IMG/VR virus record: IMGVR_UViG_3300044678_001293
Location: 1 to 21,728 of that record
Source of the DNA: a virus
Length of the DNA stretch: 21,728 nucleotides
Strand: one strand, 5' to 3'
In this document: in pieces, positions 2,630 through 20,078 of the stretch
Numbering within the stretch: position 1 is the stretch's first letter
How the letters are laid out: every line of letters begins with the position of its first letter
Position numbers and translations under genes: made by a program
The notes under the pieces: model-generated
What the model was told of the DNA's origin: nothing
The model's database searches: none
Seen by the model: only the letters and a program-made list of their open reading frames with translations

Positions 2630-2892
2630 TGCCTTTGATAAATTCTCAAGTTACTGTAACAACTTCTCCAACCTTGCTAGTCGCTGGTGAAACCAATCCA
2701 ATTTTGGTTCATCTACATTTACACGACAACACAGACAATGTTTATTTAGGCAATGCAAATGTCACAACTTCAACAGGTTTAAGGCTAGCCAAGCAAGACT
2801 CCTTTGAAATAACTTTAGCCCCAGGAAATGCTTTGTATGCAATCATCACAACTTCAACAGCAACAGTTTCTGTCATAAAGCAGGTTTTGTAA
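2629..2892 (+). CDS. Small beta-rich head-module protein of unknown function
   Basis: This 87-residue protein is rich in Thr, Val, Ser and Asn in alternating patterns, which suggests an all-beta fold. There is no signal peptide, Cys or membrane segment. It overlaps portal and the following protease gene by one base at each end, so it is made with the head proteins and may be a head decoration, stabilising or connector accessory protein. I do not recognise the family; the structural role is inferred only from position and composition. Confidence 0.7.
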   Translation: MPLINSQVTVTTSPTLLVAGETNPILVHLHLHDNTDNVYLGNANVTTSTGLRLAKQDSFEITLAPGNALYAIITTSTATVSVIKQVL

Positions 2893-4688
2893 TGCCATAT
2901 TTTATTACTGATTCATCACCTGATTGTTCTGGTTGGGCAACTATTAAAGAAGATGGCGAAGTTATTGGCTGTCACACGACTAAACAAGATGCAATTGACC
3001 AAATGGTTGCTGTTTCAATCGCCGAAGAAATTGAACCTGGAGGCGAAAGAGCTTTACCTGATGCTTTGAGAATCGGCGATTTTGTTTCTTGGAATTCTTC
3101 TGGTGGTAGAGCAAGAGGAAGAATAGTTAGGATTGTTAGAGACGGCACTATAAATGTGCCTGATTCAGATTTCACAATAAACGGCACTGAAGATGACCCT
3201 GCTGCTTTGATAAGAATTTTTAGAGAAGAAGAAGATGGCTGGCAAGCGACAGATGTTTTAGTAGGTCATAGATTTTCTACACTTACCAAAATTGATGATT
3301 TAAGAATTCAATACAAGAAAATGAAAAAACAAAAAAGAGTTTTACCTGACAATTACAGACCATCTCTTAGCGAAGATGTGCCAGAGGGTCGTGCTTGTGG
3401 TAATTGTATTTTTTACAAAGAAGATGATGTTAAAGAATTTGCAGATGATGAACTTCGTGCTTGGTGTGAGAAGTGGGATGATTATGTAAATGGTGCATAT
3501 TATTGCAACGCTTGGCAACCTTCAGAAGAAATAGAAGAAGATTTAGAAGATGAGTTAGAAGAATCAAGACAAGTCGATTTGTCCCCACCAAGTTATATGA
3601 GAGCAGCTGCTAGAAGAGGTTTGCAATATCACGCTGATGGTTTGTCTGGTGATGGATTAAAACAACAAACTGTAAACGAAGCTCGACAAATGGCTAGCGG
3701 AAATGTTTCGGAAGATAAGTGGCGCAGGATTGGTCCTTGGATTGCCAGACATTTAGTTGATTTGGATGCACCAAAAAATTCTAATACTTCTGACCCGCAA
3801 TATCCTGGAGCAGGCTTAGTTGCACATTTGCTTTGGGGAAGCGGTCCAAGTAAAACAGCAGCCCGAAGAGCTTTAGCTTATGCTAATTCGGTAGTTGAAA
3901 GACTTGACCGCGAGGAAGATAGAAACAAATGGGCAAATTTGCAGGTATCATTACCAAAAGAGGAGAAACAAAAAAACATGAACAAAATTGAACGCAGAGT
4001 CAAAAAAGATGTCGATTTTGAGTTAAGAATAGATAATGCCGAATCTGATGGCATGCGTTTCTCTGGTTATGCAGCGGTATTTAATTCCGACAGCGAACCT
4101 CTCCCTTTTACCGAAAGAATAAATCCTGGAGCTTTCAGGAAATCTTTGCGCTCCCGTAATGAAATCAAAATGTTTATGAATCACAACATGGACCATGTGT
4201 TGGCTTCTACAAGAGCAAAAACTTTGAAATTGAAAGAAGATGACAGAGGCTTATTAGCTGAAGCTATTTTGCCAGACACTAGCGCAGGCAGAGATTTAGC
4301 AACTCTTATGAAACGCGGTGATGTTAATTCAATGTCTTTTGGTTTCTCTGTTCCAATGAATGGTGATTCTTGGTCAAGAGACGGAAAAATTAGAACTTTG
4401 AATGAGATTCGTTTGCATGAAGTTTCGATTGTTACAGGTTTCCCTGCATACGAAGCAACAACTGCAAGTGTGCGTTCTTTAGATATTTTGGCTTCAAGAA
4501 CCAATGTTGATGCTGATGCTTTGGCTGATGCAATGTTCAAACTCGAAGCAGGCGAAAACCTTGAAGCTGCTCAAGCGGATTTGATTTCTGAAGTGGTACA
4601 AAAACTTAAAGTCCAACCAGATTTAGACCCAACTGTTTTATTGGATTTGAAAAAACAACAAATTGACCTGTTATACAAGGCGGTATAA
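2892..4688 (+). CDS. Multidomain head protein ending in an HK97-type prohead protease
   Basis: This is a 598-residue fusion. Residues 1-53 form a compact segment (PDCSGWATIKEDGEVIGCH, C12 and C27). About 60-135 resembles a Tudor/SH3-like domain (GDFVSWNSSGGRARGRI). Residues 169-208 carry four cysteines (C169, C172, C192, C205) spaced like a high-potential iron-sulphur protein. After an acidic linker, about 228-345 is a helical Arg/Trp-rich domain (AAARRGLQYHADGLSGDGL, HLLWGSGPSKTAARRA). From 363 on is the U35/S78-type prohead protease, with catalytic His431 in FMNHN and Ser480 or Ser482 in NSMSFGF; it removes the capsid delta segment during maturation. Stand-alone relatives begin where M363 lies, and an AGGAG precedes that ATG, so a protease-only product of 236 aa may also be made. 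Protease identity is secure; the other domain calls are by pattern only. Confidence 0.9.
   Translation: MPYFITDSSPDCSGWATIKEDGEVIGCHTTKQDAIDQMVAVSIAEEIEPGGERALPDALRIGDFVSWNSSGGRARGRIVRIVRDGTINVPDSDFTINGTEDDPAALIRIFREEEDGWQATDVLVGHRFSTLTKIDDLRIQYKKMKKQKRVLPDNYRPSLSEDVPEGRACGNCIFYKEDDVKEFADDELRAWCEKWDDYVNGAYYCNAWQPSEEIEEDLEDELEESRQVDLSPPSYMRAAARRGLQYHADGLSGDGLKQQTVNEARQMASGNVSEDKWRRIGPWIARHLVDLDAPKNSNTSDPQYPGAGLVAHLLWGSGPSKTAARRALAYANSVVERLDREEDRNKWANLQVSLPKEEKQKNMNKIERRVKKDVDFELRIDNAESDGMRFSGYAAVFNSDSEPLPFTERINPGAFRKSLRSRNEIKMFMNHNMDHVLASTRAKTLKLKEDDRGLLAEAILPDTSAGRDLATLMKRGDVNSMSFGFSVPMNGDSWSRDGKIRTLNEIRLHEVSIVTGFPAYEATTASVRSLDILASRTNVDADALADAMFKLEAGENLEAAQADLISEVVQKLKVQPDLDPTVLLDLKKQQIDLLYKAV
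3961..3980 (+). promoter_or_regulatory. Internal ribosome-binding site and start for the protease alone
   Basis: AGGAG at 3961-3965 precedes an in-frame ATG at 3978 with a 12-nt A-rich spacer. Initiation here would give a 236-residue protein starting MNKIERR, which is how free-standing prohead proteases of this family commonly begin. The spacer is longer than the 4-7 nt seen elsewhere in this window, so initiation may be weak, or the site may be a relic of a gene fusion. Confidence 0.45.
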
Positions 4689-4970: not shown

Positions 4971-6158
4971 ATGTCTGAATACATTAAACAACAAGCAGAA
5001 GCTCGCAAGCGTTCATGGGAAGAAGCAAAAGCTCTTCTTGATACCGCTGCTGCTGAAAAGCGCGACTTAACTGCTGAAGAAAACGAAAAATATGCTCGAA
5101 TCAGCGAAGACCTTGATTCAAGAGCAAAAGTAATTGAAACCTTAAAATCAGATGCAGAACGCGAAGTTCGCGCAGCTGAAGCAATGAAAGGTTTCGAAAA
5201 CCAAGGAAGACCAGAAGCCGAACTAAGCAACGCAAAGCAAACTGATGCAGACACAATCCGCTCACTTGCTCGCGGTGAAATTCGTACAGCTAATTTCGAA
5301 AAAAGAGACGTATTAAAAAGTTCAACAGGTTCACCCGTTCCAACTTCTTTCTACGACCAAGTTCTCTTATTAGCTCGTTTTGTTGGTCCAATGTTGGAAA
5401 CCTCAACAATTCTTAACACCGCAGGTGGCGAGAATTTACAGATTCCTTCATTAGCAACTTATTCATCAGGTACAGCATTTGCTGAAGCAAACGCAATCGG
5501 TGAATCTGACCCAACATTCAACTCATTCGTAACACTTAGTGCCTACAAGTATTCATTCTTGACACAAGTTTCACGCGAATTAGTAGAAGACGCTGGCGTA
5601 GATATCCTCGGATTCTTAGCCTCACAAGTTGGTAACGCAATGGGTTACTCTGTGAACGAAGCTCTGACAACAGGTACAGGAACAGTTCAACCAAACGGAA
5701 TTGTTACAAGAGCAGGTTCTGCAGTTACAGGAACTTCTCTAAATCCAACAGCAGATAACTTGATTGATTTAGTTTATTCAATCGATACTGCTGGAAGAAG
5801 ATTACCTGGAACAGGTTTCCAAATGAACGCATCTTCAATTGCATCAGTTCGTAAATTAAAAGACAATGCAGGACAATACTTGTTCTCACCATCTTTGACC
5901 GCTGACGCAAGAGATTTGCTTCTTGGTTATCCAATCTACGAAAATCCAGCAATGGCAACCGCAGCTTCTGCTGTTAAGCCAGTGATTTTCGGTCATTTGC
6001 CAAGTTACTATGTACGCCAAGTTGGTGGATTGAAACTAGACCGCTCTGATGATTTTGCATTCAGCAGCGACCTTGTCACATTCCGCGCAACATTCCGCGT
6101 AGACGGCAACTTGATACAGACACCACATATCAAGTTCTTCAAGTCCTCAAACTCCTAA
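4971..6158 (+). CDS. Major capsid protein (HK97 fold)
   Basis: The 395-residue protein has the usual two-part plan. Residues 1 to about 100 are a charged, helical delta domain that acts as an internal scaffold and should be cut off by the upstream protease. The rest is the HK97 fold, with family signatures such as PVPTSFYDQVLLLARFVGPM, EANAIGESDPTFNSFVTL (E-loop region), SFLTQVSRELVEDAGVDI for the spine helix, and a P-domain segment VDGNLIQTPHIKFFK at the C terminus. The start is fixed by GGAG at 4962-4965. The gene stands alone between a leader and a pair of strong hairpins, which suggests its transcript is independently controlled or bounded. Confidence 0.95.
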   Translation: MSEYIKQQAEARKRSWEEAKALLDTAAAEKRDLTAEENEKYARISEDLDSRAKVIETLKSDAEREVRAAEAMKGFENQGRPEAELSNAKQTDADTIRSLARGEIRTANFEKRDVLKSSTGSPVPTSFYDQVLLLARFVGPMLETSTILNTAGGENLQIPSLATYSSGTAFAEANAIGESDPTFNSFVTLSAYKYSFLTQVSRELVEDAGVDILGFLASQVGNAMGYSVNEALTTGTGTVQPNGIVTRAGSAVTGTSLNPTADNLIDLVYSIDTAGRRLPGTGFQMNASSIASVRKLKDNAGQYLFSPSLTADARDLLLGYPIYENPAMATAASAVKPVIFGHLPSYYVRQVGGLKLDRSDDFAFSSDLVTFRATFRVDGNLIQTPHIKFFKSSNS

Positions 6159-6180: not shown

Positions 6181-6220
6181 GTTTGGGATACAGAGCGCAG
6201 GCTGTGTCCCAAACGCTTTT
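6181..6220 (+). terminator. Strong hairpin after capsid, probable terminator or attenuator
   Basis: GTTTGGGATACAG (6181-6193) pairs with CTGTGTCCCAAAC (6202-6214), a 13-bp stem with one U-G pair and an 8-nt loop. It is followed by GCTTTT at 6215-6220. The T-tract is short, so read-through into the downstream genes is likely. It begins 22 nt after the capsid stop. Confidence 0.65.
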
Positions 6221-6221
6221 C

Positions 6222-6248
6222 GAGTCCATCTTCTTGTAAGGTGGACTC
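6222..6248 (+). terminator. Second tandem hairpin upstream of the glycosyltransferase cassette
   Basis: GAGTCCATCTT (6222-6232) pairs with AAGGTGGACTC (6238-6248), an 11-bp stem with one U-G pair and loop CTTGT. It starts only 7 nt after the first hairpin stem ends and lies 24 nt before the GTG start at 6273. No clear T-tract follows. It may back up termination, protect the 3' end of capsid mRNA, or be a processing site. Confidence 0.5.
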
Positions 6249-6272
6249 ACCTGCGTATTTTAGGAGTCTTGC

Positions 6273-7526
6273 GTGAACGAAGAAAAAAAGAAGCTCGCAA
6301 AAAAAATGCATTTGCGAGTCGTTGGTGAAACAAAAAATAAAAGAATCTTATTTACTAGTAATGCTCCTTGGGCTTCAACTGGTTATGGGCAACAAACCGC
6401 TCAATTAACAACAAGATTAAAAAAAGATAATTATGAAGTTGCAATTGCAGCCAATTATGGTTTAGAAGCAAGCAACTCTGAATGGAATTCTTCCGCAGGT
6501 GTGATACCTGTTTATGCTCGCGGTCATGAACAATGGTCCAATGATGTTATTCCAGCGCACATGTACGACTGGACTCAAATTGACCCAGATGCTCAACATT
6601 TGCTTATGACTTTGTTTGATGTTTGGGTATTCAAAGGCGAGAAGTGGAAAGATTGGCCAATTGCTTCTTGGGTTCCAATAGACCATTTGCCTTGTCCGCC
6701 AGAAGTTTCAGTTTGGTGTCGAAACAAAAATGTTCACCCAATTGCTATGAGCAAGTTCGGTAAAGCAATGCTTGAAAATGTTGGCATTGAAGCCTCTTAT
6801 GTACCTCATGGTATAGAAAATGTTTTCGAACCGACAGAAACTATTACTGACAATGTTGGTGAAATTGCTTGCCGAGAATTCATGAATATTGGTGAAGATA
6901 GATTCGTTGTTGGAATGAACGCTGCTAACAAAGGTGTTTATCCAAACAGAAAAGCGTTCGGCGAAAACCTATTAGCCTTTTCAATGTTTGCTAGAAAACA
7001 CAAAGACGCTTTGCTTTATTTACATACAGACGCTTCAGGTTCTTTAGGTGGCATTCGTTTGACTGAGCTTATAGCTTCAGTTGGTATTCCAAAAGAACAA
7101 GTTGTTTTTGTCGACCCTTATATTTTAAGAGCTGGCGTCAGTCAAAAAACTTTAGCTGGCATTTATACAGCAATGGATGTTTTGCTTGCGACTTCTTACG
7201 GAGAGGGCTTCGGTATACCAACAATTGAAGCTCAAGCATGTGGGACAAGAGTTATCGTTTCGGATTTTGCAGCTTCCGCAGAGCTTTGCGGAGACGGCTT
7301 CAAGATTCCAGGACAGCCTCTTTGGGATGCTCCTCAAAAATCTTGGTTTCATGTTCCTAATGTTGATGCAATTGTTGAAGCTCTTGAAAGCGCGTATAAC
7401 GCAGGTCAGCAAAGGTCACTTAAAGCTATGGAATTTGCGGAGCAATACAAGGCAGATGCGGTTTATGAAAACCTTTGGAAACCCACATTAAAGGCAATTT
7501 GGCAGGACAAAAACCTTTATGAATAG
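6273..7526 (+). CDS. Glycosyltransferase, family 4-like (GT-B fold)
   Basis: This 417-residue protein looks like a retaining GT-B glycosyltransferase that moves a sugar from a nucleotide-sugar donor. The N terminus has a Rossmann start with a glycine loop (RILFTSNAPWASTGYGQQ). The C-terminal domain carries the EX7E donor-site motif as E311-GFGIPTI-E319 within ATSYGEGFGIPTIEAQACG. The GTG start at 6273 has AGGAG at 6262-6266 with a 6-nt spacer. The first dozen residues are Lys-rich (EEKKKLAKKMH). It opens a five-gene cassette inserted between capsid and connector genes. Acceptor and sugar cannot be told from sequence; a virion protein or host envelope glycan are both possible. Confidence 0.85.
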   Translation: MNEEKKKLAKKMHLRVVGETKNKRILFTSNAPWASTGYGQQTAQLTTRLKKDNYEVAIAANYGLEASNSEWNSSAGVIPVYARGHEQWSNDVIPAHMYDWTQIDPDAQHLLMTLFDVWVFKGEKWKDWPIASWVPIDHLPCPPEVSVWCRNKNVHPIAMSKFGKAMLENVGIEASYVPHGIENVFEPTETITDNVGEIACREFMNIGEDRFVVGMNAANKGVYPNRKAFGENLLAFSMFARKHKDALLYLHTDASGSLGGIRLTELIASVGIPKEQVVFVDPYILRAGVSQKTLAGIYTAMDVLLATSYGEGFGIPTIEAQACGTRVIVSDFAASAELCGDGFKIPGQPLWDAPQKSWFHVPNVDAIVEALESAYNAGQQRSLKAMEFAEQYKADAVYENLWKPTLKAIWQDKNLYE

Positions 7527-7589
7527 GAAGATACTAATATTGGGTGAAAGTCCCGCATTTTTGTTCTGTGAGCCTCTGAGGGGTATCTG
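7527..7589 (+). promoter_or_regulatory. Structured junction between two glycosyltransferase genes
   Basis: These 63 non-coding bases can fold into an outer stem, AGATACT (7529-7535) with GGTATCT (7582-7588, one U-G pair). Two short inner hairpins may form, GGG/CCC around TGAAAGT and CCT/AGG around CTG. The GAGGGG Shine-Dalgarno at 7578-7583 overlaps the outer stem, so folding could limit translation of the next gene. The inner stems are only 3 bp, so the evidence is modest. Confidence 0.25.
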
Positions 7590-8249
7590 ATGATTCCCGC
7601 AATGATTGTCCCAGTCTTGACTCGATACGATTTGTTGGACCGAATGATAAAGTCCATAAATTACCCAGTCAAAGATTTGTTGATAATCGATAATGGGGCA
7701 AAAGGTAACTCTTGGGAACCTGCTTGGAATCAATGGGTCTCAAAAGTTTGGCACATGAAAATACCATCAAATCTTGGTGTCGCATCTTCTTGGAATCTCG
7801 GAATAAAATCTTTACCTTTTTCTGAATATTGGTTGATAACAAATTTTGATGTCGAGTGGGGTGGGGATTCTTTGTCAATGTTCAGCGACCTTTCAGATGC
7901 AAACAAATTGCTTTTATCGAATGGTTCACCAGAATGGTGCGCTTTTAGTTTGGGTTGGAAAGTTGTTGACGAAGTTGGTTTATTTGATGAAGCTCTGCAC
8001 CCAGCATATTTTGAAGATAATGATTATGAACGCAGATGCAAAGTGAAAGGTGTAACGATTGAAAGGTCTTTCATTCCTGTTGCGCATGATAATTCTTCGA
8101 CTTTGCAAAATGGTTTTCAATCAGCCAACGATAGGACTTTTGAAAACAACGCGCATTATTACACTATGAAAATGCAAACAAAAGATTTGACAGACGGCAG
8201 ATGGCAAATCAGGAGAAGAAGAAGAAATGCTTGGGACAATGAGAGCTGA
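7590..8249 (+). CDS. Glycosyltransferase, family 2-like (GT-A fold)
   Basis: This 219-residue protein has the order of motifs of an inverting GT-A enzyme: an N-terminal strand and helix (IVPVLTRYDLLDRMIKSI), LLIIDNG near 30-36, a metal-binding DXE-like segment NFDVEW with D87 and E89, and the acceptor-side motif GLFDEALHPAYFEDNDYERR with E142, D143 and D145. ATG 7590 follows GAGGGG by 6 nt; upstream in-frame stops at 7545 and 7569 rule out an earlier start. The C terminus ends in a basic run (RWQIRRRRRNAWDNES) and overlaps the next gene by 23 nt. The donor and acceptor are unknown. Confidence 0.85.
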   Translation: MIPAMIVPVLTRYDLLDRMIKSINYPVKDLLIIDNGAKGNSWEPAWNQWVSKVWHMKIPSNLGVASSWNLGIKSLPFSEYWLITNFDVEWGGDSLSMFSDLSDANKLLLSNGSPEWCAFSLGWKVVDEVGLFDEALHPAYFEDNDYERRCKVKGVTIERSFIPVAHDNSSTLQNGFQSANDRTFENNAHYYTMKMQTKDLTDGRWQIRRRRRNAWDNES

Positions 8250-8838
8250 TGTAACGATTTGCACCGCAACAATCCCAATACGCTCTGAGCTTTTGCAAAG
8301 ATGCATTGCGAGTGTTGCGAATCAGACTTTGCAACCTGAAAAGCATTTAATAATGGTTGATGAAAAAAGAGAAGGACATACTATAATTCTTGACCGCATG
8401 ATTAAGAAAGCAAAAACAAAATATATTGCAATCCTTGATGATGACGATGAACTTTTACCAAGACACATTGAAGTTATTTACAATTGCATAGAGGAAACCA
8501 ACGCGGATTTAGTTTTTCCTTGGTTCAAATATTCGAACTTGCCTGATGGTGGTCATTTAGAAAAATACAAGAATCAACCTTGGGACAATAATCAACCAAG
8601 GCAAGTTCCTATAACTTGGATTGCTAAAAGAGAAACCATTTTATCTGTTGGCGGTTTCCAAAAAGATTTCGACATGAATAGTTACATAGTTGACAAAGAG
8701 GGCAATCGAGAGGGACATGATTTTGCAATGATAAAAAAGTTATGCGCGATAAATGCAAAAATTGTCCATCACCCAGAAGTGACTTGGATTTACCACGTTG
8801 GTCATGGTTCAACTTTAGGAATGCCTGCCAGATGGTAG
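8227..8838 (+). CDS. Glycosyltransferase, family 2-like (second GT-A gene)
   Basis: This 203-residue protein shows VTICTATIPIRSELLQRCIASVANQT at the N terminus, the usual GT-2 nucleotide-binding start. A run of four Asp (D71-D74 in AILDDDDELLPRH) is the metal-binding DXD. Further on come KRETILSVGGFQKDF and EGHDFAMIKKLC, the acceptor loop and catalytic-base region. Start 8227 has AGGAG 11 nt upstream in a purine run; the alternative ATG 8239 would remove MLGT and fits family N termini slightly better. It overlaps its neighbours on both sides (23 nt and 7 nt), consistent with a coupled cassette. Confidence 0.82.
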   Translation: MLGTMRADVTICTATIPIRSELLQRCIASVANQTLQPEKHLIMVDEKREGHTIILDRMIKKAKTKYIAILDDDDELLPRHIEVIYNCIEETNADLVFPWFKYSNLPDGGHLEKYKNQPWDNNQPRQVPITWIAKRETILSVGGFQKDFDMNSYIVDKEGNREGHDFAMIKKLCAINAKIVHHPEVTWIYHVGHGSTLGMPARW

Positions 8839-9452
8839 ACGTGACAATAATTACAGCCGTATATGGCGACAAATATGACCATTTCATAGATGGTTGGTTT
8901 GAAGCAATTGAAAACTTAGAACTAAAACCCAAACAAGTTTTGATGGGAACAGACCAATACAGGAACGCCAATTGCAAACAAATAATACGAAACACCGCTG
9001 AAGTCAAATGGCGTTCACCATTTTTTTGGAACGAATGCGCCAAAGCTGCAAAAACAAGTTGGGTTTGGGTTTGTGACATAGACGACAGATTAAAACCTAA
9101 TGCGTTGAACAATTTAGAAAAACAAGATTGCGATATTTGGCAAGTCGGCTATCAAGTTCAAGGCTCGCAAGAAATCTATATACCACCAAATTTGATAAAC
9201 GAAACAATTTATACAGAACCTTATTGTTATTTTTGTTGCGCTTCACCTATCAAAAAAACTTGGTTAGATAAATGTCCTTACCCAGAAGTTGCTTATGCTG
9301 ATTGGGCAATGTGGCGCAAATCAGCAAGACTTGGTGCAAAGTTCGGTTATGCCAACGAAGCTCTTTACGATTACCGAAAAGATTTTGCTAATTCTATGTC
9401 AGGTTGGGCAGACGCAGATTTGAATAATAGGAATGAAGCTCTTGAATATTAA
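8832..9452 (+). CDS. Glycosyltransferase-like protein (third GT-A-like gene)
   Basis: I start this at ATG 8832, giving 206 residues beginning MVDVTIITAVYGDKYDHF, which matches a GT-A first strand; the longer open frame upstream is inside the previous gene. A DXDD motif, D82-I-D84-D85 in VWVCDIDDRLKP, is the likely metal and nucleotide-sugar site. The middle holds several aromatic and Cys residues (TEPYCYFCCASP), and YADWAMWRKSARLG resembles the helix after the acceptor loop. It is more divergent than its two neighbours and may act on a different sugar. Overlaps are 7 nt upstream and 20 nt downstream. Confidence 0.72.
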   Translation: MVDVTIITAVYGDKYDHFIDGWFEAIENLELKPKQVLMGTDQYRNANCKQIIRNTAEVKWRSPFFWNECAKAAKTSWVWVCDIDDRLKPNALNNLEKQDCDIWQVGYQVQGSQEIYIPPNLINETIYTEPYCYFCCASPIKKTWLDKCPYPEVAYADWAMWRKSARLGAKFGYANEALYDYRKDFANSMSGWADADLNNRNEALEY

Positions 9453-10047
9453 AGAGTTCAAAAACAAATACGGATTGGCAACCCCAAAAACAAAAGGTGA
9501 ATCTCATATTCAGGGTTGGGGTTCAGAGAGCATAGCTTTGACAAAAGTTTTGAATGAATGCGAACCTGAATCAATAATCGAAGTTGGTTCTTGGCTCGGG
9601 GCTTCAGCATTATTCATGGCTTCAAAAACGCAAGCGGAAATCATTTGCGTTGATACTTTTTTAGGTTCAAATGCAAGCCTTTGGCAAGATTACCAAGCTC
9701 AAGATTTGATTGGAAATTTCGACAAGATTTACAAACAATTTTGCATAAACATAACGAGCCAAAATCTTAACGAGCAAATAGGTGTTTTACCTATGACAAG
9801 TTCTTCCGCCGCAGAATTATTGTTAAAAGAACAAGTCACCGCAGATGTGGTTTATATTGATGCAGGTCATAGGGAAAGAGAAGTTTATGCTGATTTGCAA
9901 GATTATTGGCAATTAACGAACAAAATCTTGATAGGTGACGACTACAATCCTGTTTGGGGTGGGGTCATTATCGCAGCCAATAGATTTGCTTTAGAAAACC
10001 AATTACAATTGGAAATAATTGACGACAAGTTTATTTTGAGACGATAG
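9433..10047 (+). CDS. Class I SAM-dependent methyltransferase (Methyltransf_24-like)
   Basis: The 204-residue protein has the Rossmann methyltransferase plan. Motif I is E50-V-G-S-W-L-G56 followed by ASALFMA. An acidic residue ends strand 2 in IICVDTF. VVYIDAGH with D143 and H146 is motif IV, and LIGDDY with D169 and D170 follows. These last two motifs suggest the metal-dependent cephalosporin-hydroxylase/sugar O-methyltransferase group. The gene overlaps the preceding glycosyltransferase by 20 nt, so the likely substrate is the glycan made by the cassette; capping by O-methylation is inference. DNA methylation is unlikely because no DPPY/NPPY motif is present. Confidence 0.8.
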   Translation: MKLLNIKEFKNKYGLATPKTKGESHIQGWGSESIALTKVLNECEPESIIEVGSWLGASALFMASKTQAEIICVDTFLGSNASLWQDYQAQDLIGNFDKIYKQFCINITSQNLNEQIGVLPMTSSSAAELLLKEQVTADVVYIDAGHREREVYADLQDYWQLTNKILIGDDYNPVWGGVIIAANRFALENQLQLEIIDDKFILRR

Positions 10048-10073: not shown

Positions 10074-10682
10074 TTGGCAATCACAAACGGCTATGCGAGC
10101 TTGAATGAAATCAAAGCAGCATTGCGTATAACAGATAGCGTAGATGATGCTTTATTAGAAATGGCAGTTGAATCAGCCTCTCGTCTAATAGACGGCTACG
10201 CCAATAGAGCATTTTATTTGGTCGGAACAGCTTCTAGATATTTCGTTGCGCAAGACGATTTTATTTGCCCGATTGACGATTTAGCAGGAACAGCTTCACT
10301 GGTAATCCAGACAGCAGGAAACGCTGACGGAAATTTTGACACGACTTGGGCTGCAGATGATTATCAACTTGAGCCATTGAATCAAGTTTTAGACGGACAA
10401 TCTTGGGTTTTTACCGACATTCGAGCAATCGGTGATTATCTTTGGCCAATCTTAAATCACGAAGCTCTAATAAAAGTGACTGGTGTTTGGGGTTGGACTT
10501 CTGTTCCAATTACAATTAAACAAGCGACAATTATTCAAGCAAGTCGTATTTTCAAAAGATTAGATTCACCTTTAGGTGTTGCAGGTTTCGGCGATTTGGG
10601 AGTCATGAGAGTTTCCTCATCATTAGACCCAGATGTGGCTCAGTTGGTTATGCCATTTAGACGAATGAGAACTTTCGCCTAA
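10074..10682 (+). CDS. Head-tail connector protein (HK97 gp6-like)
   Basis: The connector forms a ring under the portal and joins head to tail. The 202-residue sequence opens with the typical gp6-like helical segment (SLNEIKAALRITDSVDDALLEMAVESASRLIDGYANRAFY, residues 7-46) and then a beta-rich body ending in VMPFRRMRTF. The start is TTG 10074 with AGGAG at 10064-10068 and a 5-nt spacer. It restarts the structural operon after the glycosyltransferase cassette and overlaps the next gene by one base. Confidence 0.8.
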   Translation: MAITNGYASLNEIKAALRITDSVDDALLEMAVESASRLIDGYANRAFYLVGTASRYFVAQDDFICPIDDLAGTASLVIQTAGNADGNFDTTWAADDYQLEPLNQVLDGQSWVFTDIRAIGDYLWPILNHEALIKVTGVWGWTSVPITIKQATIIQASRIFKRLDSPLGVAGFGDLGVMRVSSSLDPDVAQLVMPFRRMRTFA

Positions 10683-11107: not shown

Positions 11108-11518
11108 ATGGCAAAATTTGCTGCAACAGACTATAAAATTACAGTCGCAGGCACAGATTTTTCAACCAATCTCAACTCAGTTGAATTGGCTCAAGAAGCT
11201 GATGACCTAGAAACAACCGCTTTCGGGCAAGGTTGGAGAACAAGAATCGGTGGCTTAAATAACGCAACAATAACTTTGAACTTTATGCAAGATTTTGCAG
11301 CAGGTTCAGTTGATGCTGTATTAAATCCATTATTAGGAACAATCGCAACAGTAATTATCCAAAGCGCATCAGGAACAGTATCAGCAACACAACCAAAGTA
11401 CACCGCAACCTGTTTAGTTACCCAATACTCACCATTTGCTTCTAGTGTTGGCGACATTGCAACACTTAGTGTAAGTTGGCCAGTATCCGGAACTGTAACA
11501 AGAGGGACAACTGCTTAA
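11108..11518 (+). CDS. Major tail tube protein
   Basis: The 136-residue protein is beta-rich with an N-terminal strand AATDYKITVAGTDFS, a loop ETTAFGQGWRTRIGGL and a repetitive strand pattern (NATITLNFMQDF), which is the plan of tail tube proteins that stack as hexamers. AGGAAAAGGA at 11089-11098 is a strong purine-rich ribosome site, as expected for an abundant protein. It lies directly before the frameshifted chaperone and tape-measure genes, the standard order. Confidence 0.82.
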   Translation: MAKFAATDYKITVAGTDFSTNLNSVELAQEADDLETTAFGQGWRTRIGGLNNATITLNFMQDFAAGSVDAVLNPLLGTIATVIIQSASGTVSATQPKYTATCLVTQYSPFASSVGDIATLSVSWPVSGTVTRGTTA

Positions 11519-11770
11519 ATGAAAATCAATCTGCGCATTGAATTTGTATCAGGCGAACCAAAAGAAATCGTCTGCTCAGCAAGAGACCTAGTTGCGTTCG
11601 AAGAGAAATTTAACAGGTCAGTTGCGAAACTCGAATCTGAATTTCGTTTAACTGACTTGTTGTTTCTCGCATGGCATTCTGAAAAAAGAACAAACTCAAC
11701 TAAAAAAGAATTCGAACCTTGGCTTGATGAAGTTGAGTCAATAAATGTCAGCGACATAGACCCAAAATAA
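11519..11770 (+). CDS. Tail assembly chaperone, short (zero-frame) product
   Basis: This 83-residue protein begins directly after the tube-protein stop (TAAATG) and has the gpG-like segment VAFEEKFNRSVAKLESEFRLTDLLFLAWHSE, which holds the tape measure during tail assembly. The TAA at 11768 lies immediately after a slippery heptamer, so ribosomes that do not shift stop here. The short form is normally the more abundant of the two products in such systems. Confidence 0.85.
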   Translation: MKINLRIEFVSGEPKEIVCSARDLVAFEEKFNRSVAKLESEFRLTDLLFLAWHSEKRTNSTKKEFEPWLDEVESINVSDIDPK

Positions 11771-16617: not shown

Positions 16618-17187
16618 ATGCCTATTGTTGGTTCTTTTGCTGGTGCTTCAGCACGCGCCTATGGTTTAGGTGCAAGTCGTATTGCAGAATCTGATTTAAG
16701 ACTTATCTCCACTCAATCTTTCACTACTGCATCAAGTGTGACTTTTGATAATGTTTTTTCAAACGATTATGTACAATATAAAATCTTAACAGAAGCAACT
16801 GGAACAACTCTTGCAGGAATAAATTTTCAATTTAGAACTTCTGTTCCTAGCACATATACAACAGCAAATTATCGTTGGCAAAAATTCCAAATTGTTAATA
16901 CTGACATAACAAATTCTGGTCGTTCAACTGGTCAAACAAGTTGGCAAAATGCTTTAGGCGCAGTTGATAACGCTCAAGGATATGCTTCATTTTTAGAAGT
17001 TTATAATCCTTTTCAAACAGTAGCAACTACTGGATTAAATCAACATTCTTACAGTAATGTTGGTACTTTAGAAATTAGAGCATTTGCAATAACTGTTACA
17101 GATTCGTTCGCTGGTTTTCTTTTCGCCCCAAGTGCTGGAACGATAACAGGTTCAGTATCTGTTTTCGGATACTATAAGGGGGCATAA
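16618..17187 (+). CDS. Tail fibre/receptor-binding-like protein, paralogue A
   Basis: The 189-residue protein has an N-terminal extension of about 34 residues (MPIVGSFAGASARAYGLGAS) that the next two genes lack, perhaps an attachment segment. A beta-rich module follows: FTTASSVTFDNVFSNDYVQYKIL, ANYRWQ, EVYNPFQT, then a closing block DSFAGFLFAPSAGTITGSVSVFGY. The same order of blocks occurs in the two downstream genes, so the three are paralogues. It is coupled to the next gene by TAATG. A virion surface role is inferred from position and composition. Confidence 0.6.
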   Translation: MPIVGSFAGASARAYGLGASRIAESDLRLISTQSFTTASSVTFDNVFSNDYVQYKILTEATGTTLAGINFQFRTSVPSTYTTANYRWQKFQIVNTDITNSGRSTGQTSWQNALGAVDNAQGYASFLEVYNPFQTVATTGLNQHSYSNVGTLEIRAFAITVTDSFAGFLFAPSAGTITGSVSVFGYYKGA

Positions 17188-17675
17188 TGGCAAAAGGACT
17201 TATTTTATTAGCAAAGGACACTTTCACTACGGCTTCAACAGTTAGTTTTAACAATGTTTTTTCTGCAACTTACAAACAATATAAATTAGTTCTTAATGTG
17301 ACGGGTTCTGCTAATGGTGCTTTAGTGATGAGATTAAGGGCTAGTGGTTCTGATAATACTGCAGCAAATTACAGGAGACAATATGTTCAAGGAAATGGCG
17401 CATCAATTGCTGCAGGCTACTCCTCAACAAATACTCTTTGGTTTTTAGTTGGTGGGAACGCAGTTAGAGAAATAATTTTTGCTGAAGTTTTGTATCCTTT
17501 TCAAACAACTAACACAAGTATGTTTTGCAATTATAATGGTGCTTCATCGGGAAATATTCAAATAGTATGTCAAGCACAAGATATTTCAGTAACAACTTCT
17601 TATGATGGATTTACAATTTTTGCTGATACTGGAACTATAACTGGCTCGGTTATTATTTACGGAATTGAACAATAA
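17187..17675 (+). CDS. Tail fibre/receptor-binding-like protein, paralogue B
   Basis: This 162-residue copy begins straight with the shared module: FTTASTVSFNNVFSATYKQYKLV, MRLRASGSDNTAANYRRQY, EVLYPFQT and SVTTSYDGFTIFADTGTITG. The central region (about 70-105) differs most from the other copies, where host specificity could reside. One-base overlaps join it to both neighbours. It shares short identical DNA blocks with paralogue C (17328-17343 and 17589-17608). Confidence 0.6.
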   Translation: MAKGLILLAKDTFTTASTVSFNNVFSATYKQYKLVLNVTGSANGALVMRLRASGSDNTAANYRRQYVQGNGASIAAGYSSTNTLWFLVGGNAVREIIFAEVLYPFQTTNTSMFCNYNGASSGNIQIVCQAQDISVTTSYDGFTIFADTGTITGSVIIYGIEQ

Positions 17676-18187
17676 TGGCTCAAGAAAATTTTTCATCTCC
17701 AGGTTTAGTTTTTATTAAAAAAGCAACTGGAACAAGTGTTTCTACTATTAGTATAGATAATTGTTTTTCAAGTACTTATTCACAATATAGAATTATTTTT
17801 GATATATCGACATCGGTAGGTCAAACAAATATGAGATTAAGGGCTAACGGCGCAGATAATTCTTCAACGAATTATAGACGACAATATTTTAATATATTTT
17901 CAACTTCAAGAGATACGGCTAGGGATACAGGTCAGGCTTCTTGGGGAGGAGTTGGCTCTATTGATACTGTACAAGAAATTTCTATATGCGAAATATTAAA
18001 TCCCTTTCAAACTGAATATACAAATATGTTTTATGCTTCGTGCTATCAACCGGTTGCAAATACAAATCTTTATATGGCGATGTTTGGAATAAATGTAACA
18101 ACTTCTTATGATGGTTTCACACTTCTTCCTGATGTAAGTGGAACTATTACTGGAACAATTTACGTTTATGGTTATGTCAATTCATAG
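17675..18187 (+). CDS. Tail fibre/receptor-binding-like protein, paralogue C
   Basis: This 170-residue copy has the same order of blocks: VSTISIDNCFSSTYSQYRII, MRLRANGADNSSTNYRRQY, EILNPFQT and NVTTSYDGFTLLPDVSGTITG. It is closer to B than to A and shares exact DNA stretches with B (17831-17846 and 18095-18114). Its DNA is visibly more AT-rich than its neighbours, for example around 17880-17920, which may mark more recent acquisition or faster change. No enzymatic motif is seen. Confidence 0.6.
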   Translation: MAQENFSSPGLVFIKKATGTSVSTISIDNCFSSTYSQYRIIFDISTSVGQTNMRLRANGADNSSTNYRRQYFNIFSTSRDTARDTGQASWGGVGSIDTVQEISICEILNPFQTEYTNMFYASCYQPVANTNLYMAMFGINVTTSYDGFTLLPDVSGTITGTIYVYGYVNS

Positions 18188-19100: not shown

Positions 19101-20078
19101 TTGAATAAGCGCGCCAAACTGCGCTTATTTTTAGTTTTCATCTTGATAGGTTTTATTGTCGCGCCTGCTTTTGCTGATGAACAAACAATCGAATTATCAC
19201 CTGAAGTTCCTTATGTGGATGTTGTAGTGGAAGCCACTGAACCGACACAAATAACAATTCAAACTACAAACGGAACACCGCAAACGAATCCTAGTTTTAT
19301 AGATTCTTGGGTCGAGCTTTGGCAAGGTGCTATAAAACTTTTTGCTAATGATGACGGAGCGCATTCAGGGACAAATGTTTTGGCTTCTTTTATTTCAGCA
19401 CCAATTGAAACAGGCACATATTTCATTCGTGCAACTTCTTTCGGTTGGATGGCAAGCAATCAAACACAAACACCAACAGGAAGTTATCTTTTAACTTGGG
19501 ATGGTGTTACAACTCTTCAGCCAACACCAACGCCAACACCAGAAGCGTCACCAACAGAAACAACAACGCAAACCCCAACTCCAGAACCTACGCTAACGCC
19601 AACGACAGAACCGACCCCAACAGAAACACCATTACCACCAATAGAACAACCTGTACAAAACGAAGAGAATACAACTCAGGATTTACCGACAGTAATTGTT
19701 GAGCCAGAAGAAATAATCCCAGATTTGCCAGAAGAAGAAATAGTACAAACACCAATTGAACCAACAATTGAAGAACCTTTCGTTGAATTACCAGTGATAG
19801 AAGAACTTACAGCAGAAGAGCTTATAGAGCAAGAACAAGCGTTGTATGTTGAAGAAAACACTATAGAATTACAATTACCAACTGCGCTTGCAGAAATACC
19901 TGGTGTTGAACAAATCTTTGCAGCAGCCGAAGCGGTTATGAATGTTGGTTCTGATATGACTCAGGAACAACGCGAAGAATCTCAAGCTGTTGTAGTGAGT
20001 GCGATTATCCTTACTCAAATCGCTTCAATGACTAGTATTTCTGTATCACAATCTTCAAGCAGAAAGTTTAATAAATAA
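19101..20078 (+). CDS. Secreted Thr/Pro-rich protein of unknown function
   Basis: The 325-residue protein starts at TTG 19101, the only start that gives a full signal peptide: basic MNKRAKLR, a hydrophobic core, and an AxA site A23-F24-A25 before D26. Residues about 26-135 look like a compact beta domain resembling bacterial pre-peptidase C-terminal modules (VELWQGAIKLFANDDGAHSG, GTYFIRATSFG). Then come a Pro/Thr linker (about 141-180), an acidic Pro-rich stretch to about 260, and a helical C terminus with a hydrophobic run about 296-315. It sits between the lysin and two membrane proteins. It may act on the host surface or in lysis; function is unknown. A 9-bp hairpin overlaps its first codons. 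Confidence 0.75.
   Translation: MNKRAKLRLFLVFILIGFIVAPAFADEQTIELSPEVPYVDVVVEATEPTQITIQTTNGTPQTNPSFIDSWVELWQGAIKLFANDDGAHSGTNVLASFISAPIETGTYFIRATSFGWMASNQTQTPTGSYLLTWDGVTTLQPTPTPTPEASPTETTTQTPTPEPTLTPTTEPTPTETPLPPIEQPVQNEENTTQDLPTVIVEPEEIIPDLPEEEIVQTPIEPTIEEPFVELPVIEELTAEELIEQEQALYVEENTIELQLPTALAEIPGVEQIFAAAEAVMNVGSDMTQEQREESQAVVVSAIILTQIASMTSISVSQSSSRKFNK
19104..19138 (+). terminator. Terminator-like hairpin inside the start of the secreted-protein gene
   Basis: AATAAGCGC (19104-19112) is perfectly complementary to GCGCTTATT (19121-19129) around an 8-nt loop, followed by TTTAGTTTT. It has the shape of a Rho-independent terminator lying 4 nt after the lysin stop, yet it covers codons 2-10 of the next gene. 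It may attenuate transcription or hide the TTG start from ribosomes. Confidence 0.55.

Follow-up and report, generated by a model that had tools for sequence, protein, structure and literature searches.

A putative virion glycosylation cassette ancestral to an aquatic actinophage family, with a capsid-end hairpin predicted to pair at its first gene

Gene content of the capsid-connector interval

We analyzed a 21,728-nucleotide (nt) stretch of viral DNA, positions 1 to 21,728 of the IMG/VR record IMGVR_UViG_3300044678_001293, referred to here as the window. This 21.7-kb record holds a late gene block of the siphophage type, in which terminase, portal, protease, HK97-type capsid, connector, tail terminator, major tail protein, and tape measure genes are joined by a cassette of glycosyltransferase (GT) and methyltransferase genes at positions 6273 to 10047. 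The cassette genes, their two flanking genes, the hairpins, and the tail genes at 11108 to 11770 all lie on the plus strand of the window. The left flank of the cassette is the HK97-type major capsid protein gene (4971 to 6158; Phage_capsid, 2.5e-53; phrog_10, 5.9e-61), and the right flank is a gp6-type head-tail connector gene with a TTG start (10074 to 10682; Phage_connect_1, 6.5e-6; phrog_442, 3.8e-18). Between the capsid gene and the first enzyme gene stand two hairpins, one with a 13-bp stem directly after the capsid stop codon (hairpin 1, 6181 to 6214) and one that is kept in the clade of the window (hairpin 2, 6222 to 6248). Together they fold with a z score of -3.2.

The first enzyme gene encodes a GT4-like glycosyltransferase of the GT-B type, begins with GTG, and forms the core of the cassette (6273 to 7526; phrog_2170, 5e-32). 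Its membership in GT4 is indicated by both an EX7E motif and a Glycos_transf_1 domain (PF00534, 6.8e-11). It is followed by three glycosyltransferase genes of the GT-A type, namely, the GT2-like GT-A1 (7590 to 8249; phrog_29879, 6.8e-47), the GT2 member GT-A2 (8227 to 8838; Glycos_transf_2, 1.2e-11), and the divergent GT-A3 (8832 to 9452; phrog_9549, 8e-12; no Pfam match). The last gene encodes a class I methyltransferase dependent on S-adenosylmethionine (SAM), probably a sugar O-methyltransferase (9433 to 10047; Methyltransf_24, 8.6e-10). We place the start of GT-A3 at the ATG at 8832, which overlaps the stop codon of GT-A2; the mechanically called open reading frame (ORF) start at 8742 is wrong, and the relatives agree with the later one. 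The open reading frames and families bear out a preliminary description of this DNA, which had listed one GT-B, three GT-A, and one methyltransferase gene and a TTG start for the connector. Its division of the GT-A enzymes into two clear members and a divergent one is fair, although GT-A1 is itself recognized mainly by phage profiles (Pfam GT2, only 0.015). As to its view of the cassette as coupled, genes 2 to 5 overlap by 23, 7, and 20 nt, and GT-B is followed by a gap of 63 nt (7527 to 7589). This gap in an otherwise overlapping cassette is also present in several relatives (L009, L040, and L089).

All five enzymes retain intact catalytic motifs, are under purifying selection, and look active. 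Among 119 GT-B homologues, at least 95% retain the EX7E pair E311/E319; the closest solved structure to GT-B is that of the chlorella-virus protein B736L (2.8e-5). The GT-A set carries metal sites of the DxD type: D87 with D143 and D145 in GT-A1, where H166 is conserved as well; a DDD motif in GT-A2, of which D72-D74 is kept in at least 95% of 28 homologues; and a DIDD motif that is invariant across 12 sequences of GT-A3. The methyltransferase motifs EVGxWxGAS, D74, DAGH, and GDD, assigned to SAM binding and to acidic metal or catalytic positions, are invariant in 13 sequences. An AlphaFold model of GT-A3 (pLDDT, 85) has a GT-A fold and matches TarS, TarP, RmlT, and WrtF, and a model of the methyltransferase (pLDDT, 84) matches MeT1 of Mycobacterium hassiacum, COMT, and SpnH; specificity for sugar O-methylation is what the motifs and this model suggest. 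Ratios of nonsynonymous to synonymous substitution rates (dN/dS) range from 0.015 to 0.28 for all five enzymes wherever they could be computed. Loss of catalytic residues, the outcome that the preliminary description had named as contrary to its proposal, was looked for in the relatives and did not occur. Because the motifs are intact, selection is purifying, and the predicted folds fit, the short methyl-capped glycan proposed there is plausible.

Age and turnover of the cassette

Searches of viral contigs for capsid and connector together recovered 94 loci with both flanks, reduced to 54 by the removal of near duplicates. A wider set comprises 207 viral loci, some of which share a contig, in which the sequence continues for 1.5 kb or more 3' of the capsid gene. 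The distance from capsid to connector in the 54 nonredundant loci ranges from 2.0 to 5.1 kb, and GT-B is the first enzyme gene 3' of the capsid gene in every one of them (54/54). In the wider set, GT-B is present in 196 of 207 loci. A comparison of synteny with relatives lacking the cassette, as suggested in the preliminary description, was possible at natural empty sites, where the connector begins 98 to 119 bp 3' of the capsid gene (L191, L210, L215, L230, L243, L247, L289, and L290), and two other loci (L211 and L223) retain only GT-A1. A capsid tree rooted with the capsids of actinobacterial prophages without the cassette makes GT-B ancestral to this actinophage family and lost approximately three times.

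The cassette is the ancestral state of the whole family and not a recent insertion, and it is ordinary at its site. The preliminary description had the genes spliced in behind hairpins that mark their left boundary. The hairpins are indeed there, but hairpin 1 is not an insertion mark because relatives without the cassette also carry it. A recent hairpin-bounded insertion is ruled out, with hairpin 1 present at empty sites and the cassette placed at the base of the tree, and the same site is in use in other phages (see below).

Gene turnover is limited to the distal enzymes, while the GT-B core is kept. GT-A1 occurs in 39 of the 54 cassettes, a TagD-like glycerol-3-phosphate cytidylyltransferase in 19 (for example, L099:6031-6456), a family designated C5 (approximately 267 amino acids; no Pfam match) in 14, an epimerase in 9, and the methyltransferase family of the window in 8. 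Rarer members are GT17-like, MptE-like, and radical SAM/SPASM proteins and other methyltransferases, and the gene architecture of the window itself is found in 6 of 54. The TagD-like enzyme suggests glycerol-phosphate or similar substituents on the glycan. The radical SAM/SPASM gene lies within the glycosylation cassette of two relatives (L088:5099-6037 and L094). Two others (L003 and L004) are approximately 100% identical to the window in GT-B and GT-A1 protein sequence and 96% identical from GT-A2 to the connector, which hints at recombination inside the cassette.

The phage in the window is probably an aquatic phage of actinobacteria (Actinomycetota). Pontimonas phage phiPsal1 (MG835450), a member of the same phage family, infects a genus of the Microbacteriaceae, and family contigs are found in an uncultured metagenome-assembled genome (MAG) of the Microbacteriaceae. 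A capsid search of genome contigs with the window protein alone gave no match, while a search with an alignment recovered Microbacteriaceae MAG contigs and distant prophages. Among the relatives searched for WhiB, a hallmark of actinobacteria (PMC10202952), 8 of the 9 that have at least 30 kb of sequence encode it, as against 0 of 5 shorter ones. One Microbacteriaceae MAG contains three family contigs (L288, L289, and L290), of which one has the cassette and two have an empty site.

Probable acceptor of the glycans

Cassettes at the same site in other phages bear on what this one modifies. Phage phiPsal1 has the order capsid-GT4-methyltransferase-GT2-neck, with 45% (capsid), 47% (connector), 44% (GT-B), and 45% (GT-A1) identity to the window and with GT-B and GT-A1 in the same order. 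It differs in having only two glycosyltransferases, in a methyltransferase gene that has a different place in the gene order and lies on the minus strand, and in that no loop pairing with its first glycosyltransferase gene was found; this phage is not discussed further in its genome paper (PMC6106888). Mycobacteriophage Baka (cluster J, Omegavirus) carries a cassette of several glycosyltransferases and a methyltransferase (gp11 to gp20) at exactly this position, in the order capsid-GT-kinase-methyltransferase-GT-GT-galactosyltransferase-...-GT-connector. Baka gp14 is homologous to GT-A3 (24% identity, 2e-4). This cassette differs by an extra kinase, a protease, and other genes, and pairing between a loop and a gene start was not seen by eye in its capsid-GT gap. 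GT-A3 is also distantly homologous to gp104 of Tweety (25% identity, 1e-6), a member of cluster F1, the cluster of Che8 and Rita, for which capsid glycans have been reported (PMC11256854). Cluster O phages, with three tandem glycosyltransferases and an O-methyltransferase, are reported to modify the capsid and tail tube (PMC11600133), and the mycobacteriophage virion O-glycosylation of Freeman et al. 2023 (via PMC11600133, PMC11256854, and PMC12619734) likewise combines tandem glycosyltransferases with an O-methyltransferase. GT-B, GT-A1, and GT-A2 had no tblastn match in mycobacteriophages. Homologues of GT-A1 or GT-B (35 to 40% identity) occur in glycosyltransferase clusters inside the head genes of Synechococcus phage S-CBS4, where a GT-galactosyltransferase-methyltransferase cluster lies between portal and protease, and of Microcystis phage Mae-JY09, both of which differ from the window in their hosts and capsids.

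Given the cassettes that phiPsal1 and Baka carry at this site and the distant homology of GT-A3 to F1 glycosyltransferases, glycosylation of the capsid, perhaps of the tail tube too, is most likely the function of the cassette, and it would be of a known kind. Decoration of the virion, which the preliminary description had favored, is the best-supported reading. It is backed by a GT-B that is locked to the capsid both in place and in evolutionary distance, by the homology of GT-A3 to enzymes of clusters F1 and J, by the likeness of the methyltransferase to sugar O-methyltransferases, and by the fact that no flippase or bactoprenol membrane glycosyltransferase of the GtrABC serotype-conversion kind was seen among the window genes or in the ten cluster representatives scanned. 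(A GtrB-like PHROG match of GT-A2 spans only 40 residues.) Pairwise distances of GT-B and capsid correlate with an r of 0.943, and the partial correlation controlling for connector, tail terminator, and tail tube is 0.853, a coupling that would be expected of an enzyme acting on the capsid. In the proposed scheme, GT-B would add the first sugar to the capsid subunit and perhaps to the tail tube as well, the GT-A enzymes would then lengthen the chain, and the methyltransferase would cap one sugar with an O-methyl group. The distal genes (glycosyltransferases, methyltransferases, TagD-like cytidylyltransferase, epimerases, and radical SAM enzyme) are swapped between lineages, and since exchange affects only these genes, the outer glycan would vary between phages while the core step stays constant. 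Both the acceptor and the composition of the glycan are predictions.

A change of the host surface, in which decoration of a wall glycopolymer would block superinfection or the readsorption of progeny to debris, is the strongest of the other explanations, although we regard it as unlikely. The closest folds to GT-A3 are the wall-teichoic-acid glycosyltransferases TarS and TarP and RmlT, the TagD-like enzyme found in 19 cassettes recalls teichoic acid precursors, and superinfection control has been proposed for the glycosyltransferases of other Nanopelagicales phages, E7 and F5 (PMC10202952). However, a cassette within the late structural block would leave little time for remodeling of the wall, the membrane functions named above were not seen in the genes scanned, GT-B coevolves with the capsid, and comparable mycobacteriophage cassettes are reported to act on virions (PMC11600133, PMC11256854, and PMC12619734). 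We consider it still less probable that the main acceptor is not the capsid but the tail tube or some other virion protein. The major tail protein (tail tube; 11108 to 11518; phrog_4574, 9.1e-32) is a second candidate acceptor, with Thr-bearing C termini like TRATA or RGTTA throughout the family, and modification of both capsid and tail tube is described for mycobacteriophages (PMC11600133 and PMC12619734). Position and coevolution nevertheless favor the capsid (partial r with GT-B distances of 0.85, versus 0.24 for the tail tube), with gene order confounding the comparison. Glycosylation of DNA as a shield from host nucleases, which along with superinfection control was suggested for the glycosyltransferases of these first Nanopelagicales isolates (PMC10202952), is highly improbable here given the late structural position of the cassette, the homology of GT-A3 to enzymes of phage clusters with glycosylated virions, and a set of several glycosyltransferases plus an O-methyltransferase that is a pattern of glycan assembly. 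Unlike those proposals, the evidence for the present family points to the virion.

Capsid-end hairpin and its predicted partners

A hairpin directly follows the capsid stop codon in all clades, with a T run like that of an intrinsic terminator outside the clade of the window, and it has no match in Rfam. The loop of hairpin 1 (AGCGCAGG at 6194 to 6201) is complementary to ACCTGCGT at 6249 to 6256, the putative 5' end of the GT transcript (duplex energy, -13.3 kcal/mol), and a weaker second site, CTTGCG at 6268 to 6273, overlaps the GTG start of GT-B. The sequence TCTGCGC at 11530 to 11536, also complementary to the loop (-12.4 kcal/mol), lies at the start of the gene directly 3' of the major tail protein gene (11519 to 11770), which has no informative family match and is a tail assembly chaperone by position only. 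This tail-gene tag lies within codons 2 to 6, is 5 kb from the capsid hairpin in the window, and tracks the loop by clade, including at synonymous third positions. Loop and target are GCGCAGG and CCTGCG in the clade of the window, CTAGGTTG and ATGTCCAAACAACCTAG in L217, GTAGGGTT and ATGAACCCTAC in L270, TGTGGG and ATGCCCACA in L258, and GCAGGTT and ATGACAACCTGC in L206. The spacing from the loop to the first GT site varies from approximately 36 to 52 nt. The target often starts six to seven nt 3' of a TANNNT box, and therefore the GT message is probably leaderless in many clades. Judging from the position of the target in relatives, hairpin 2 of the window may contain the promoter, with TAAGGT at 6237 to 6242 as its -10-like element. 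No recurrent third target of the loop was found in 20 longer relatives.

Permutation of partners among 33 to 45 distinct loops gave z scores of 7.0 to 8.6 (0/20,000), while the sequence 5' of the hairpin and the 3' stem of the hairpin gave no signal in the same test. By gene, z was 6.9 for GT-B and 7.7 for the tail gene (0/10,000 permutations each). Nine control starts (connector, tail terminator, tail tube, capsid, portal, protease, GT-A1, GT-A2, and GT-A3) stayed within a |z| of 1.3, with GT-A2 represented by five loops only and the methyltransferase left out for having too few loci. When 11 to 12 loop classes were compared by duplex energy, z was -5.5 and -5.1 for the two targets (0/20,000 each), and the connector, tail terminator, tail tube, capsid, and protease starts were null. 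A loop position that is either C or T agrees with its partner base in 78 of 78 loci for the GT region and in 58 of 59 for the tail gene codon. Per-locus shuffles of the 75-nt downstream region were too weak (47/132 at a P of ≤0.05), since short G-C runs often match, and were replaced by the partner permutation with control genes. A sign test on independent pairs for the one base was dropped, as there were too few pairs.

We judge it somewhat more likely than not that, in this phage family, the hairpin at the 3' end of the capsid mRNA works as a regulator by base pairing. Its loop would contact the glycosylation transcript at the 5' end and, in trans, the beginning of the gene that follows the major tail protein gene. 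The abundance of the capsid message would then set the output of two low-copy partners, and loop and targets would have switched together several times. In the proposed mechanism, the capsid transcript would end in this hairpin, whose loop would pair with the GT-B message, at its 5' end or start codon, and also with the beginning of the tail gene. Such pairing would most likely lower translation of two products that are probably needed far less than capsid and tail tube. Both targets adjoin, on the 3' side, the two most abundant structural genes, and pairing would repress them at times when capsid RNA is abundant. It might act as a read-through pseudoknot in cis, through a released 3' end in trans, or both. 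While the pairing is well supported by covariation, antisense control, its direction, and the choice between cis and trans are what we infer from it. RNAII of plasmid pMV158 acts on repB in a similar manner, as a hairpin RNA that pairs at the initiation region and blocks translation of its target (PMC4485353). Features of antisense RNAs derived from 3' untranslated regions (UTRs) are seen here in the terminator-like hairpin 3' of the capsid gene and in covarying complementarity to target initiation regions. What would set the present case apart from RNAII and from 3' UTR-derived small RNAs is a hairpin formed by the 3' end of a phage capsid gene, with two phage genes as its putative targets. 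No precedent for a capsid-gene 3' hairpin pairing with phage genes was found in the literature searched.

Sites for a single DNA-binding phage regulator, set in two orientations and drifting with its specificity, are a possible explanation of the complementarity between loop and gene starts, although an improbable one. A repressor of shifting specificity would likewise account for three sites in each genome that vary in concert, and the stoperators of mycobacteriophage L5 are located at gene ends and starts. However, one of the sites is always found in a stable hairpin loop and runs as the reverse complement of the other two, the tail-gene site falls in codons 2 to 6 right after the upstream stop codon without an evident promoter, and the spacing of the first GT site from the loop is not fixed. 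DNA sites therefore fit the position and orientation of the loop less well than RNA pairing does. It is very unlikely that the complementarity results from common descent together with conservation of the N-terminal residues of the tail gene (KINLR): only two to three independent pairs are available at the one base and the amino acids are conserved, yet every such pair is concordant, the covarying base is a synonymous third position (CTG/CTA), and the loop-class permutation gave 0/20,000 at both targets while control gene starts were null.

Taken together, it is reasonably probable that the cassette serves to glycosylate the virion, was already present in the ancestor of this aquatic actinophage family, and has the expression of GT-B tied to the capsid gene by RNA. 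Several observations weigh against this. Approximately three lineages lack the cassette, and it is therefore not essential; GT-B and the capsid are linked in part simply because their genes are neighbors; pairing is absent in some GT-bearing lineages (the phiPsal1 clade, L250/L264, and L140); and independent one-base changes on the tree are few, with only two to three pairs, even if all are concordant. A C-terminal capsid Ser is the kind of glycan site reported for mycobacteriophages, but it gives no support here because it is conserved also without the cassette. We rejected the C-terminal Ser/Thr as a glycosylation marker, as the Ser (GGAS or GAAS) is kept equally in relatives without the cassette.

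With this cassette, a large and old family of environmental phages joins the small number thought to carry glycosylated virions. In aquatic actinophages, glycosylation of the capsid would then be ancestral and for the most part retained, with outer sugars exchanged by gene turnover, and not a curiosity of mycobacteriophages. The natural losses and the GT-A-only state make the use of the cassette testable. The layout at the capsid site is known from other phages, and the covarying pairing of the capsid hairpin is the less ordinary part; if true, the RNA link would give a phage a simple means of balancing structural against catalytic proteins, using the end of its most abundant mRNA.

Elsewhere in the window, three ORFs in tandem (16618 to 17187, 17187 to 17675, and 17675 to 18187) look like paralogues of a tail-region protein and share a start resembling FTTASxVxFxNVFSxxYxQYK. 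The ORF at 19101 to 20078 combines a long Pro/Thr/Glu-rich stretch with a signal-like N-terminal segment and is without an informative family match. The head maturation protease ORF (2892 to 4688) has an N-terminal Hva1_TUDOR extension (1.6e-7) ahead of its S78 protease domain.

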